DNA of 64,000 nt, from NCBI GenBank assembly GCA_028709785.1, contig JAQUTK010000018.1, forward strand, positions 1-64,000. The letters are read 5' to 3'. This DNA comes from Bacteroidales bacterium. GTDB lineage: Bacteria > Bacteroidota > Bacteroidia > Bacteroidales > JAQUTK01. Positions 10,307-32,539 of this stretch are shown here, piece after piece (position 1 is the first letter of the stretch; each line of letters starts with the position of its first letter). Made by a program: the position numbers and the translations under genes. The notes below the pieces were generated by a model that was not told where the DNA came from, searched no databases, and saw only the letters and a list, made by a program, of their open reading frames with translations.

Positions 10307-12223
10307 TTAGAGAATGTTTTTTACAGGAGGTGGAGGCGGTGGCGGTAGACTTCCACTTTTCTTGGTTGCTGTTGATACAGGAGGCGGTGGAGGAGGTGGA
10401 TAATTTGAAATGGTCACACTTCCATCACCCATAAAACGGAATCGCTTTAGCAAAGCATATTCTACACGCTCATCCCCTTTTTCTGATTTGGCCGGTTTCC
10501 ATGTGGGCATTCCCAAAAAGATATCCGCCAGAGCTTTTGTCACTTCAGGATCTGAAGTGCCGTTTTTGTTGGAGGCTGTCTTGATACGCGAACCGATTAC
10601 TTTGCCTGCTTCATCAATATAGAAGAAAATCTCGGCATTTCCTTTCAATTTGCAGTTTCGAATGACCGGTGATTCGTTCACCTTTTGAAGCAAATATGTT
10701 GTCAGGGCTTCTTCTCCTCCCGGGAATTCGGTCTTTTCTTTTATTTCCTTGTCGTTATTCCGGTAATTGACATCATATTTATCACTGATCTTTCCTCCGG
10801 TTAGCCGGAAAGTGATAGGCACCAAGTATCTTACATTAACAGGAACTCCATTTTGAGTTCCGGGCTTCCAGTCCGGCATTAGTCTCATTACCCTTAGTGC
10901 TTCCGCATCCAATAGAGGAGAAACGCCTCTCTCTACCTTTTCGCCGCTCACTTTACCATCTTTCCCGATGATAAAGGATACGGTAACACGACCTTTTTCT
11001 CCACGTGACTTCGCTTCTTTGGGATACTGAACTATTTTTTGGACAAATTCCATCAACTTTGCATCTCCGCCGGGGAATACAGGAGGGTTATCCATACTTG
11101 CAAAAGGAACAGCTTTCTCATCCTCCTTTTTGGTGAGGATCACCGAGTCTTTTTCTGAATTAGAGAAGATTGCGTCACTAAGATTTAGTAAACCTGCCTC
11201 TTTGTTTAAAACATTTTCTGTACTTTTGTCCGTGGTAAGTGCCTCCGTTTGAGAGGAGACTACCGGACGGGCGAAGGCTGACAATAAGATTGCCGCCAAC
11301 GGAAGAAAGCCAAAGGCTTTCATCTGTGCCCAACGATTGGATCTTTTGCGTAACATCATAGTAATTCTTTTTTTAAGTGAACTGTGATTCAAGCTGTTGG
11401 CTAAAGTGTAGGAGCTGGAGCCAACAGCTTCTTTTATTAATAATAATTGATAGTGGGTCGGATTAAATCCATTGCTTATAACTGCGGAGTCTGCTTCGTA
11501 TTCATGAATACTCTGTAGCTCCTGTTTAAGCAGGTAAGTAGCCGGATTGAACCACTGGAAGATCGTGAAAAGTTCGCACAACATGACGTCGGTGGAGTGA
11601 TGGCGGTTCAGATGCGCCAGTTCGTGTGCCAGTATCTCGTCATTCTTCCCTTTGTAATCCTCTTCTGAAAGAACGATATATTTCCACCAACTGTAGGGCG
11701 AGACTTTCCCGGGCAGGATAGCAATCGTGTATTTCCCGTGCTTCACTTTTGTTGCTCTACCAATTGTCTTATAAAGGAGATACAACGAACGTGCCACAGC
11801 ACTCATGCGAACAGCTGCACCTAAAAGGTAAATCACCAGACAAACGATTAGAAACAGGTGTAAATTCAGTTCGCTCGTACTAGCTTTCTCCTCCGGATAG
11901 ACTCTTTCATACTCCGTTTCTTTCAGACTCTTTTCGTAATCAACAGTAGCGGTTGGAGTCAGTACCTCTTTCGCCGTCTTCTCTTTTATGGGCGAATCGG
12001 CAGTGACGACCACCTCCAATGTATGAAAAGCAACCTGAATCGGTCGAACCTCTGTGGTCGGTATTTCACAGAAAGGTAATAGGACAGATACAGCCAAAAT
12101 ACCCATCAGCACATACCGGTTGAGCGTATGAAAGGTTTCTTTACTCAGTAATACCTTATAAAAAAGGAAGAGAGTGGTGAGACAAAGCATTGATTTGAGC
12201 ATGAAAATAAACCAGGTTCCCAT
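10307..12223 (-). CDS. M56 (BlaR1-like) peptidase with TonB C-terminal domains and polyproline tail
   Basis: TM segments, HELAHLNRHHSTD zinc motif, TonB_C repeat, PPPPPPPV...PPPPPPPV C-terminus; start trimmed to MGTWFIF at 12223. Confidence 0.88.
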   Translation of the reverse strand: MGTWFIFMLKSMLCLTTLFLFYKVLLSKETFHTLNRYVLMGILAVSVLLPFCEIPTTEVRPIQVAFHTLEVVVTADSPIKEKTAKEVLTPTATVDYEKSLKETEYERVYPEEKASTSELNLHLFLIVCLVIYLLGAAVRMSAVARSLYLLYKTIGRATKVKHGKYTIAILPGKVSPYSWWKYIVLSEEDYKGKNDEILAHELAHLNRHHSTDVMLCELFTIFQWFNPATYLLKQELQSIHEYEADSAVISNGFNPTHYQLLLIKEAVGSSSYTLANSLNHSSLKKRITMMLRKRSNRWAQMKAFGFLPLAAILLSAFARPVVSSQTEALTTDKSTENVLNKEAGLLNLSDAIFSNSEKDSVILTKKEDEKAVPFASMDNPPVFPGGDAKLMEFVQKIVQYPKEAKSRGEKGRVTVSFIIGKDGKVSGEKVERGVSPLLDAEALRVMRLMPDWKPGTQNGVPVNVRYLVPITFRLTGGKISDKYDVNYRNNDKEIKEKTEFPGGEEALTTYLLQKVNESPVIRNCKLKGNAEIFFYIDEAGKVIGSRIKTASNKNGTSDPEVTKALADIFLGMPTWKPAKSEKGDERVEYALLKRFRFMGDGSVTISNYPPPPPPPVSTATKKSGSLPPPPPPPVKNIL

Positions 12224-12259
12224 GATTTCTTCTTTATTATATTGTTGTGCAGAGGACAT
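11208..12259 (-). repeat. Duplicated M56 peptidase block, copy A
   Basis: Nearly identical DNA to 13127-14177 at an offset of about 1919 bp. Confidence 0.8.
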
Positions 12260-12330
12260 CCCGGGGATGCCCATAGTCGTTTTTTCTGAAAAATACTATT
12301 TTTTATTCTGACCGGTCATTTAGATTCCTC

Positions 12331-14142
12331 TCATTTAGTCAGTCTGAAAGTAACTGGTAACACATATTTGACGTTGACAGGCTTTCCTCTCAGAGTTCCG
12401 GGTGTCCAATCAGACATTGCATTCACGACTCTTAGTGCTTCCGCATCCAAGTCAGGCGAAACGCCTCTTTCTATTTTTGCATTATAGACTTTCCCATTAC
12501 TACCAATTATAAAAGATACGGTAACACGACCTTTTTCTCCACGTGTCCTCGCTTCTTTGGGATACTGAACTATTTTTTGGACAAATTCCATCAACTTTGC
12601 TTCTCCACCAGGGAATACAGGAGGGTTTTCCATTATTGCATAAGGAACGGCTGGCTTTGAGTATGTAAGCTTTTTAGGCATTTCCTGTTCAGGAGGAAGT
12701 GGTGGAGTGATGCCTTCTACTGTTCCATCCGTGAGGAAACTGAAATATCTTTTTACCGCAACAGGTTTGCCGTTCTTTATTGCAGGGCTCCATTTAGGCA
12801 TGCTGTTTACCAATTGCAGAGCAATAGCTCCTACCTTTTTGTATGTGCATCTTTCTAATTTTGCATTCGCTACACTACCATCCTTGTTAATATCGAACGA
12901 AACAATGATAAGACCGTCGTTTGTATCTCCTGTTCCAAAAAATACCTGAGAATATAGAAAGTTCATAAGAGCTTTATCTCCACCCGGATATTCAGGCACT
13001 TTGTCTAATGAGGAAAAAGGAAGGGATTTTAAATCCTTGTTCAGAAGATTTGAATAATATTCAAACGATGTCTTGTCGACGACTTTAGTTGAATCTTTTT
13101 CTTTTAGTAAACCAGCATCCTTGATTAAAACATTTTCTGTACTTTTGTCTGTGGTAAGTGCCTCCGTTTTAGCGGATACTTCCGGACGGGCGAAGGCTGA
13201 CAATAAGATTGCCGCTAACGGAAGAAAGCCAAAGGCTTTCATCTGTGCCCAACGATTGGATCTTTTGCGTAACATCATAGTAATTCTTTTTTTAAGTGAA
13301 CTGTGATTAAGGCTGTTGGCTAAAGTGTAGGAGCTGGAGCCAACAGCTTCTTTTATTAATAATAATTGATAGCGGGTCGGATTAAATCCATTGGTGATGA
13401 CTGCGGAGTCTGCTTCGTATTCATGAATACTTTGCAGTTCCTGTTTAAGCAGGTAGGTCGCCGGATTGAACCATTGGAAGATCGTGAAAAGTTCGCACAA
13501 CATGACGTCGGTGGAGTGATGGCGGTTCAGATGTGCCAGTTCGTGTGCCAGTATCTCATCATTCTTCCCTTTGTAATCCTCTTCTGAAAGAACGATATAT
13601 TTCCACCAACTGTACGGCGAGACTTTCCCGGGCAGGATAGCTATCGTGTATTTCCCGTGCTTTACTTTTTTTGCTCTACCAATTGTCTTATAAAGGAGAT
13701 ACAACGAACGTGCCACAACACTCATGCGAACAGCTGCACCTAAAAGGTAAATCACCAGAAAAACGATTAGAAACAGGTGTAAATTCAGTCCGCTTGCACT
13801 AGCTTTCTCCTCCGGATAGACTCTTTCATACTCCGTTTCTTTCAGACTCTTCTCGTTATCAACAGTAGCGGTTGGAGTCAGTGCTTCGTTCTCCGTCTTC
13901 TCTTTTATAGGCGAATCGGCAGTGACAACCACCTCCAATGTATGAAAAGCAACCTGAATCGGTCGAACCTCTGTAGTCGGTATTTCACAGAAAGGCAATA
14001 GGACAGATACAGCCAAAATACCCATCAGTACATACCGGTTGAGCGTATGAAAGGTCTCTTTACTCAGCAACACCTTATAGAAAAGGAAGAGTGTGGTGAG
14101 ACAAAGCATTGATTTGAGCATGAAAATAAACCAGGTTCCCAT
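12331..14142 (-). CDS. M56 (BlaR1-like) peptidase with two TonB C-terminal domains
   Basis: HELAHLNRHHSTD; N-terminal half nearly identical to the 10307-12223 gene; start trimmed to MGTWFIF at 14142. Confidence 0.88.
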   Translation of the reverse strand: MGTWFIFMLKSMLCLTTLFLFYKVLLSKETFHTLNRYVLMGILAVSVLLPFCEIPTTEVRPIQVAFHTLEVVVTADSPIKEKTENEALTPTATVDNEKSLKETEYERVYPEEKASASGLNLHLFLIVFLVIYLLGAAVRMSVVARSLYLLYKTIGRAKKVKHGKYTIAILPGKVSPYSWWKYIVLSEEDYKGKNDEILAHELAHLNRHHSTDVMLCELFTIFQWFNPATYLLKQELQSIHEYEADSAVITNGFNPTRYQLLLIKEAVGSSSYTLANSLNHSSLKKRITMMLRKRSNRWAQMKAFGFLPLAAILLSAFARPEVSAKTEALTTDKSTENVLIKDAGLLKEKDSTKVVDKTSFEYYSNLLNKDLKSLPFSSLDKVPEYPGGDKALMNFLYSQVFFGTGDTNDGLIIVSFDINKDGSVANAKLERCTYKKVGAIALQLVNSMPKWSPAIKNGKPVAVKRYFSFLTDGTVEGITPPLPPEQEMPKKLTYSKPAVPYAIMENPPVFPGGEAKLMEFVQKIVQYPKEARTRGEKGRVTVSFIIGSNGKVYNAKIERGVSPDLDAEALRVVNAMSDWTPGTLRGKPVNVKYVLPVTFRLTK

Positions 14143-14177
14143 GATTTCTTCTTTATTAGATTGTGGTGCAGAGGAGA
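13127..14177 (-). repeat. Duplicated M56 peptidase block, copy B
   Basis: See copy A. Confidence 0.8.
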
Positions 14178-14218
14178 TTCCGGATCTCCTCTGTGGTTTC
14201 ATTTGTCAGTTGTTTACG

Positions 14219-16342
14219 CTATTTTGAAGCAGCCGGTTTTGTTCCCTCTCCATTACTTAATCTGAAGGTAATGGGTAACATATATCTTACATCCACAGCT
14301 TCTCCTTTTAGTTTCCCGGGGGTCCAGTTTGGCATGATGCTTACCACACGCAGTGCTTCCTGATCCAGTTCTGTGCTAACACCTCTTTCGACTTGCCCGT
14401 TGACCACTTTCCCGTCCTTGTTTATAATGAACGAAACAGTGACACGACCAGCCTCACCACGAGCTTTCGCTCCTTCCGGATATTGGACGTTTTTCATTAT
14501 CCATCCCATCAACTCGGCATCTCCACCTGGAAATGCGGGAGGGTTGTCTACCTTTCCATAGGCAAATGGCTCCTGATCGTTTGTGTTTGACTTGTTGTCA
14601 GCGTTGTTACCGCGTATCTTAATTATATATTCGGAGTTAGGATCGGCTGATTTAGCAGTAATTTTCGCTCCGGAATTTGAGGAGCCTTTTTTTGTAGTAA
14701 TCAGAACAACACCATTCTTCCCTTTCTCACCATAAATGGTAGTGGCTGCTGAGTCTTTCAATATTTCAATGCTTTTAATATCCTTAGGATCTATATCTTT
14801 GAGCGGCGAATGGGAATTGGATAGGTCGTTGATATTGGCACCATTTAAATCAAGATCATAAGGCACACCATCAATAACTATCAAAGGATTGTCTGCACGA
14901 TGTTCCCCATCCAAACGAATTGTATAAGCTGAACCCGGATCACCGGAAGTAGCCACAATCTGCACTCCGGCAGGTTTCTTCGCGCCTTTTTTTGTTGTGA
15001 TGAGAACGACGCCATCCTTTCCTTTTTCTCCATAAATCGTGGTAGCGGAAGCTTCTTTTAATATTTCAATGCTTTCAATATCCGCAGGATTGATTCCTTT
15101 TAGTGGTGAATGGGAGTTGGTAAGGTCGTTGATATTGGCTCCATCCAATTGAATGTCAGTAGGCACACCGTCAATAACAATCAGAGGCTTAGCCGATTTG
15201 TCAAGGGATGCTTTATCACGGATACGGATTGTGTATACTTTATTCGGATCACCTGACTCAGAACTGACAACCACTTTCGCCGAACTTTCCTTCGCATCTT
15301 TCTTTGTTGCGTCGGTTGTATTTGCCTTTTCAACAATAGTAATTCCGCCGATAGGCTCTTTTTTCTGCGGGACTGTGTCCTTGTCGGAAACATTTTCTGT
15401 ACTTGTCATGCCGGTAAGCATTTCCGTCTTGGCGGATACTTCCGGACGGGCGAAGGCTGACAACATCAGTGCCGCCAAGGGAAGAAAGCCAACGGCTTTC
15501 AACGATGCCCAACGATTGGATCTTTTGCGTAACATCATAGTAATTCTTTTTTTAAGTGAGCTGTGATTCAGACTATTGGCTAAAGTAAAGGAGCTGGTGC
15601 CAACGGCCTTTTTAATTAATAATAATTGATATTGGGTCGGATTAAAACCATTTTCGAGGACAGCCATGTCTGCTTCGTATTCATGAATACTCTGCAGTTC
15701 CTGTTTGAGCAGGTAAACAGCCGGATTGAACCACTGGAAAATAACAAATAGTTCGCAGAGCAGGATGTCTGTGGAGTGATGACGGCTCAGATGGGCCAGT
15801 TCGTGTGCCAGAATCTCGCCATTTGTTTCTTCATAATCTTCTTCGGAAAGCACGATATAGTGCCACCAACTGTACGGTGAAACCTTTCCCGGAACAATTG
15901 CAATTGTGTACTTCCCATACTGCACCTTTCTTGCTTTACGAATTGTCCTTTTCAGTGTATACAATGAACGAGCCAGAAAAAGGGCCCGGACGGTTGCACC
16001 GGTCAGATAAATTGCCAGACAGATCGTGATAAAGAGTTGCAGGTCAAAGCCCTTCTCTACATTGGCACTAACAGTGACTTCGGGTAACATATATCCTTCA
16101 ACCTGTTCATTCGCTTGCGAAGATACAGCCAGCTCGAGCGTATGGAAGGCCAGTTGTATCGGACGGGTTTCTGCCGTAGGAATTTTAAAGAAAGGAAGCA
16201 CGATGGCTATCGTCAGGATTCCCAATAACAGATAGCGGTTGAGCGTATGGAAGGTCTCTTTGCTCAGCAACACTTTATAGAATAAAAAAAGAGTGGTGAG
16301 ACAAAACACTGATTTGATCATGAATATGAACCAGGCTCCCAT
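14219..16342 (-). CDS. M56 (BlaR1-like) peptidase with two SusC-plug-like repeats and a TonB C-terminal domain
   Basis: HELAHLSRHHSTD; PLIVIDGVP...ADIESIEILKEASATTIYGEKGKDGVVLITTKKG occurs twice; ends with TonB_C. Confidence 0.88.
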   Translation of the reverse strand: MGAWFIFMIKSVFCLTTLFLFYKVLLSKETFHTLNRYLLLGILTIAIVLPFFKIPTAETRPIQLAFHTLELAVSSQANEQVEGYMLPEVTVSANVEKGFDLQLFITICLAIYLTGATVRALFLARSLYTLKRTIRKARKVQYGKYTIAIVPGKVSPYSWWHYIVLSEEDYEETNGEILAHELAHLSRHHSTDILLCELFVIFQWFNPAVYLLKQELQSIHEYEADMAVLENGFNPTQYQLLLIKKAVGTSSFTLANSLNHSSLKKRITMMLRKRSNRWASLKAVGFLPLAALMLSAFARPEVSAKTEMLTGMTSTENVSDKDTVPQKKEPIGGITIVEKANTTDATKKDAKESSAKVVVSSESGDPNKVYTIRIRDKASLDKSAKPLIVIDGVPTDIQLDGANINDLTNSHSPLKGINPADIESIEILKEASATTIYGEKGKDGVVLITTKKGAKKPAGVQIVATSGDPGSAYTIRLDGEHRADNPLIVIDGVPYDLDLNGANINDLSNSHSPLKDIDPKDIKSIEILKDSAATTIYGEKGKNGVVLITTKKGSSNSGAKITAKSADPNSEYIIKIRGNNADNKSNTNDQEPFAYGKVDNPPAFPGGDAELMGWIMKNVQYPEGAKARGEAGRVTVSFIINKDGKVVNGQVERGVSTELDQEALRVVSIMPNWTPGKLKGEAVDVRYMLPITFRLSNGEGTKPAASK
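14686..15290 (-). repeat. Tandem intragenic repeat encoding two plug-like modules
   Basis: IDGVP-x(30)-SIEILK-x-AATTIYGEKGKxGVVLITTKKG repeated; about 300-bp period, boundaries approximate. Confidence 0.8.
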
Positions 16343-16350
16343 GATTTTCC

Positions 16351-16716
16351 TTATTTAGATTGATTCTTTTCTACTTCGCGAATCAGATCTTTCAGTTCAT
16401 CGAGGCTGAGTGATTCTTGTTCGATGAGCGCAGAAACAAGTAGTCGGGGAGAGTCGCCAAAGAATTTGCTGACGAATCCGTTCACATTATTCAGACAATA
16501 CTCCTCTTTTGATATCGAGGGAAAATACTGATGTGATCCTCCAAAAGCCTTGTGATCCACCATCTTCTTTTCTTCGAGCAGGCGGATGAAGGTGGATACC
16601 GTATTGTAATGAGGCTTCGGATCAGGATACAATTCGCAGATGTCCCTTACAAACATAGGGCCGTTCTCCCAGAGAAACCCCATGATTTCTTCTTCTTTTG
16701 CTGATAACTTTTTCAT
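16351..16716 (-). CDS. BlaI/MecI/CopY family transcriptional repressor
   Basis: MKKLSAKEEEIMGFLWENGPMFVRDICELYPDPKPHYNTVSTFIRLLEEKKMVDH winged helix; start trimmed to 16716. Confidence 0.92.
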   Translation of the reverse strand: MKKLSAKEEEIMGFLWENGPMFVRDICELYPDPKPHYNTVSTFIRLLEEKKMVDHKAFGGSHQYFPSISKEEYCLNNVNGFVSKFFGDSPRLLVSALIEQESLSLDELKDLIREVEKNQSK

Positions 16717-16735
16717 AGTAACTAATAATATGCTG

Positions 16736-16782
16736 CAAACATAACTAATGTTTTTAGTAATCAAACTAAAAGCATTAGTTAT
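16736..16782 (-). promoter_or_regulatory. blaI promoter overlapped by a 42-bp palindromic operator
   Basis: Minus strand: TTTG (16762-16765), N18, TATGTTTG (16736-16743); inverted repeat ATAACTAATGTTTTTAGT / ACTAAAAGCATTAGTTAT (16741-16758, 16765-16782), one mismatch. Confidence 0.75.
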
Positions 16783-32462: not shown

Positions 32463-32480
32463 TTTTGTGACCTAATGGTA

Positions 32481-32521
32481 AAAAGGAAAGGGCTGCGGTA
32501 TTCCGCAGCCCTTTCCTTTTT
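32481..32521 (-). terminator. Terminator after the oadB-type gene (can act on both strands)
   Basis: AAAAGGAAAGGGCTGCGG-tatt-CCGCAGCCCTTTCCTTTT, 18-bp perfect stem. Confidence 0.85.
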
Positions 32522-32539
32522 ATAGAGATAGACTTCTAT

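Follow-up and report, generated by a model that had tools for sequence, protein, structure and literature searches.

A probable tandem BlaI-type operator in a Bacteroidales genome and a dyad length that follows repressor clade

A near-perfect inverted repeat lies over the predicted promoter of a blaI-type repressor gene in the 64,000-nucleotide stretch of Bacteroidales DNA analysed here (the window). Judged by sequence comparison, it is very probably a tandem autoregulatory BlaI operator of two 15-bp dyads, the length typical of the repressor's own clade, which may separate this operon from a 14-bp paralogue in the same genome. Many gut Bacteroidia carry BlaI–M56 operons, yet a search of the literature outside subscription journals found no published operator for a Bacteroidetes BlaI. 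The Bacteroidia half-site is new, as is a clade-fixed division into 14- and 15-bp dyads, with both forms in one genome. The features of the locus are as follows.

10307 to 12220, minus strand: third M56 + TonB_C paralogue of the predicted operon, from domain search
12331 to 14142, minus strand: second M56 + TonB_C paralogue of the predicted operon, from domain search
14219 to 16342, minus strand: M56 (BlaR1-type) membrane metallopeptidase with a HELAH motif, SusC-type plug repeats and a TonB_C domain
16351 to 16716, minus strand: blaI-type repressor gene, 121 aa, PF03965 (Pfam E = 2.8e-27), of the 15-bp-operator clade
16736 to 16743, minus strand: predicted −7 element TATGTTTG, a pattern match in the sequence, abutting the proximal dyad
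16744 to 16758, minus strand: proximal operator dyad, 15 bp, ACTAAAAACATTAGT, from sequence, with its 15-bp length kept across the BlaI clade
16762 to 16765, minus strand: predicted −33 element TTTG, a pattern match in the sequence, at the gap between the dyads
16765 to 16779, minus strand: distal operator dyad, 15 bp, ACTAATGCTTTTAGT, from sequence and genome search, ending at the −33 TTTG

The two arms of the repeat (16741–16758 and 16765–16782) are 18 nt each and 94% complementary, with one mismatch and a 6-nt gap, just as a first-pass annotation of this DNA had described them. None of 20 Markov copies of the window, and none of 3000 made from the local AT-rich 300 bp, contained an inverted repeat of this size (18/18, at most one mismatch, gap 0–8); the repeat at 16741–16782 is real and far from chance. 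The annotation had described it as a near-perfect 42-bp palindrome whose arms contain two copies of a dyad. Although the repeat is present, it is best described as two 15-bp ACTAA-N5-TTAGT dyads, because each dyad is conserved in relatives and the symmetry between them is not: across relatives, the N7 of one dyad and the reverse complement of its partner agree at 2.87 of 7 positions, and random pairing also gives 2.87. The motif ACTAAN5TTAGT has two matches in the window, where 0.06 would be expected, and its tandem form has one, where the expectation is 0; the tandem form also has one match in the whole 3.55-Mb genome, where the control has none. The dyad centres lie 21 bp apart, the commonest spacing among 15-type loci (73 pairs). 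Two further candidates were set aside: a third half-site at 16719–16726, missing from the closest relative, and a third exact single dyad elsewhere in the genome (C18:3246), which falls within a coding frame and was taken as chance.

Read along the minus strand, the distal dyad is followed by the −33 TTTG in the 6-bp gap, the proximal dyad, the −7 element and the ATG at 16716, with the proximal dyad taking up most of the −33/−7 spacer. The Bacteroidetes-type promoter proposed earlier, TTTG-N18-TATGTTTG, has its elements and its 18-bp spacer where they were placed. Such a pattern match taken alone is weak evidence, since the window holds 4 of them and 1.9 would be expected. A T-N(1–4)-TTTG-like box lies within 10 nt of a dyad at 61 of 103 15-type loci and at 61 of 92 14-type loci. 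Transcription of blaI would be expected to start near 16729, downstream of the palindrome.

The product of 16351–16716 scores 95.8 bits against PF03965 (gathering score 22.6), and MecI and BlaI (1okr, 1sd6, 1sd4, 1xsd) are its best PDB matches in sequence as well as in fold. An AlphaFold2 model of the protein has a mean pLDDT of 78.5, the DNA-binding part being confident and the C-terminal part low. All of the model's top 13 PDB fold matches belong to MecI, BlaI or their relative Rv1846c; TM values of about 0.6 match it to the MecI/BlaI winged-helix fold, a measure that leaves domain orientation unfixed. The model thus predicts a winged-helix fold with a helical C-terminal dimerisation region like those of MecI and BlaI. 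Like other members of the PF03965 family, this blaI has tandem dyads over its own promoter. The first M56 gene starts 8 nt past the blaI stop, and an M56-like ORF, recognised by regular expression only, lies downstream at 71 of 76 named relative loci. The sensor architecture at 10307–16342 is unusual. Three M56 + TonB_C paralogues follow one another, the first also carrying two SusC/RagA-type plug repeats; the domain search found only M56, Plug and TonB_C in the three proteins, and no penicillin-binding domain.

Comparison with about 230 Bacteroidia BlaI homologues (gene starts assigned automatically) shows that the dyads recur. In related genomes, most PF03965 genes have tandem ACTA...TAGT dyads in their upstream regions, and ACTA...TAGT dyads upstream of orthologous blaI genes recur across Bacteroidia. 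The annotation had named a lack of such conservation as the finding that would refute its reading, which thus withstands that check. When 156 distinct homologues were sorted by the recognition-helix residue that precedes [YF]NT, PKPA-type repressors had 159 sites of 14 bp and 0 of 15, and PKPH-type repressors had 14 sites of 14 bp against 86 of 15. Other dyad lengths between 8 and 28 gave at most 3 counts each, so that Bacteroidia BlaI dyads are essentially 14 bp (ACTA-N6-TAGT) or 15 bp (ACTA-N7-TAGT) only. A second set of 80 named loci, found with the alignment of the 15-bp clade and drawn from Bacteroides, Parabacteroides, Prevotella, Alistipes, Capnocytophaga and others, has 130 sites of 15 bp against 4 of 14; the two with 14 bp alone are Chitinophaga proteins outside the 15-bp clade. 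In the first sample, 19 of the 58 loci with PKPH-type repressors had no 15-bp dyad, in part through divergence and perhaps in part through wrong starts or contig ends.

Half-site positions 1–4 were set by the search pattern. The preceding, unforced base is A in 95–97% of sites in both the 14- and the 15-bp class, and the half-site is therefore AACTA in both. At position 5 the base is A or T, and C accounts for only 3–4% of 389 sites. The annotation was right that the half-site differs from TACA/TGTA, but it missed the distinction in spacing. Half-site starts within a dyad are 10 bp apart in the 14-type and 11 bp in the 15-type. Both distances are close to one helical turn, which may explain why only these two lengths occur. 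Neighbouring dyad centres are mostly 20 bp apart in the 14-type and 21, less often 23 bp, in the 15-type. Some homologues depart from this half-site. One BlaI subclade (L112, L119 and L141; PKPHYNT[VI]SS) has ACTGA/TCAGT or ACTGA/TTAGT half-sites in 14-bp geometry, and two divergent homologues (L028 and L029) have TACGAAA/TTTCGTA-like dyads upstream.

Dyad length follows the repressor clade and is fixed clade by clade. In a tree of 154 proteins, all 38 rows with 15-bp dyads fall within one clade of 51, and 88 of the 92 rows with 14-bp dyads lie outside it. A tree built with more care from 79 rows, among them three A-type 15-bp proteins from the DNA-first scan described below, gave the main 14/15 split a support of 100/100. 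On this tree the spacing label changes 4 times against 26.3 when shuffled, with 0 of 500 shuffles as low, and at least 3 of the 4 changes are forced by well-supported branches. One 14-bp group (L090, L092 and L131) sits inside the 15-bp side as a reverted H-clade branch. Conversely, an A-type subclade with PKPAYTT or PRPAYNT (L196, L197 and L201, from G137, G283 and G079) has 15-bp dyads; it represents a separate switch within the 14-bp side, outside the main 15-bp clade. Spacing is confounded with clade and the independent switches are few (about 4), so that the difference cannot be assigned to any one residue. His36 of the recognition helix is not sufficient for 15 bp, as Chitinophaga L256 and L264 carry His with 14-bp dyads, nor is it necessary, as the three A-type proteins carry Ala. 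Among the columns listed, residue 13 is mostly Gln, Lys or His with 14 bp and another residue with 15; it tracks spacing in the few independent pairs, but just 2 of these are well supported and 13 rows disagree, and we do not claim it as a determinant.

The link between dyads and repressor can also be approached from the DNA. A scan of 295 genomes of the order for the tandem 15-bp pattern, made without any protein reference, found it in 23, the reversed control pattern giving isolated matches only. A BlaI-like gene adjoins the sites in all 23 (one locus inspected per genome). One of these genomes, G054, is alone in having the tandem pattern away from blaI as well. Its two near-identical extra promoters (L289:389–424 on contig C46 and L290:1300–1335 on C138) stand, one before a CarboxypepD_reg outer-membrane-type gene and the other, on a separate contig, with a predicted lipoprotein gene on one side and a HAMP-domain gene on the other; judged by sequence, they are possible members of a wider BlaI regulon.

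The genome of the window has just two PF03965 genes. The operator of the second, on contig C60, reads ACTAAACATTTAGT-TTGAAA-ACTAAACTATTAGT, that is, two 14-bp dyads with a 6-bp gap, and precedes an M56-like gene. Tandem 15-bp sites occur in this genome only at the blaI of the window and tandem 14-bp sites only at the C60 paralogue (controls 0). The two operators share the AACTA half-site, the tandem arrangement, the 6-bp gap, the position relative to the promoter and a downstream M56 gene, whereas the 14-bp operators have one bp fewer per dyad, centres 20 rather than 21 bp apart and a repressor with the PKPA helix. Both spacing types were found in 5 of the sampled genomes.

Could the palindrome act as a hairpin or cruciform, as an RNA attenuator, terminator or DNA structure, instead of a protein site? 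Its long, nearly perfect arms and 6-nt loop would suit such a role. However, the site is upstream of the predicted blaI transcription start and is not expected in the blaI mRNA, a terminator-like site was not found at the palindrome, and in relatives the individual dyads persist with no conserved pairing between them, all of which makes this explanation extremely improbable. Nor does it seem at all likely that the dyads serve a regulator other than the adjacent BlaI. Adjacency is by itself no proof of cognate binding, but a search for tandem 15-bp sites from DNA alone leads to BlaI genes, and a dyad length that tracks the BlaI protein tree is not expected from a third-party regulator. Published BlaI-family members, moreover, bind pairs of inverted repeats that lie upstream of the operons encoding them (PMC8457756). 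The comparison strongly supports the earlier proposal of a tandem autoregulatory BlaI operator. A BlaI operator whose 14/15-bp difference is neutral drift under a tolerant binding mode, with no role in specificity, is a more serious alternative that we nevertheless consider unlikely. The tree does contain switches in both directions, half-sites are about one turn apart under both spacings, and the dimer might tolerate both. Against this, a tolerant dimer would not enforce uniformity, yet promoters that mix the two spacings are rare (1 of 79 named loci), the 159 14-bp sites of A-class repressors have no 15-bp sites beside them, and spacings other than these two are essentially absent.

We therefore retain a BlaI operator in which spacing matters, and infer the following model. 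Two BlaI dimers would bind next to each other on the same face of the DNA, one on each 15-bp dyad, with centres about two helical turns apart. Once bound, they would cover the −33 element and the −33/−7 spacer and exclude RNA polymerase. Relief of BlaI repression by an M56 protease is established for staphylococcal systems; here, blaI and the downstream M56 genes would likewise be repressed until an M56 sensor protease inactivates BlaI. The 15-bp clade would read AACTA as its relatives do, with one more bp between half-sites. Because the half-sites are about one turn apart in both forms, the extra bp would change the angle and distance between the DNA-binding domains of a dimer, by about 34 degrees and 3.4 Å. 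This altered dimer geometry would separate the 15-bp operon from the 14-bp paralogue. Since both types co-occur in one genome and mixed spacing is rare, we hypothesise that the extra central bp may insulate this repressor from its sister repressors in the same cell. That dyad length acts as a spacing code, with a shared half-site, fixed by clade, switched several times and pairing each paralogue with its operon, we regard as an even bet. If true, it would be the geometry of the dimer, rather than the recognition of bases, that keeps paralogues insulated. The 14/15 split amounts to a natural experiment in which a dimeric repressor shifts spacing by 1 bp and retains its half-site, and the two paralogues of this species make the insulation idea directly testable. 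The operator model also predicts repressor–operon pairs from sequence.

The overall arrangement is reminiscent of staphylococcal BlaI and MecI, with which it shares the PF03965 fold, dyads over its own promoter, their number of two and an M56 partner gene, here three. The staphylococcal blaZ control region likewise has two dyads, R1 and Z (PMC5460165). There are also clear differences: the staphylococcal half-site is TACA/TGTA, whereas this operator lacks that core and has ACTAA/TTAGT (AACTA-A), with a 15-bp dyad, a Bacteroidetes promoter and M56 partners bearing plug and TonB_C domains. The genome search, which covered intact tandem sites, finds this operon only, and no beta-lactamase or mecA gene under the same tandem operator.

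CopR/CopY copper repressors belong to the same superfamily, and their operator consensus is RNYKACANNTGTMRNY (PMC7253601), which has 14-bp geometry if its NYKA/TMRN ends are aligned with ACTA/TAGT. This BlaI matches the CopY/TcrY model TIGR02698 weakly, at 40 bits against a cut-off of 121.95; unlike those proteins, it has no C-terminal Cys-X-Cys, ending instead in ...REVEKNQSK. The ACA/TGT core of CopY operators is absent from this operator.

A precedent for paired sites comes from Clostridium thermocellum. There, BlaI_0696 and BlaI_1845 are two autoregulated paralogues tested by DAP-seq and EMSA, and each promoter carries pairs of inverted repeats for four protomers (PMC8457756). The BlaI_0696 motif is given there as GTCTAT repeats with five nucleotides between them (PMC8457756), which, counted as TCTA-N7-TAGA, apparently corresponds to the 15-type spacing. 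The tandem BlaI arrangement is already known and the 15-bp length probably has precedent. The half-site there, GTCTAT/GACTAT, is different, as is the phylum, and the available text draws no contrast in dyad length between clades. In our own set, one divergent BlaI homologue (L025) has a GTCTA...TAGAC dyad upstream that resembles the C. thermocellum GTCTAT motif. Elsewhere in the window, a perfect inverted repeat rich in G+C, with runs of A and T on its flanks (32480–32523), is probably a bidirectional transcription terminator.
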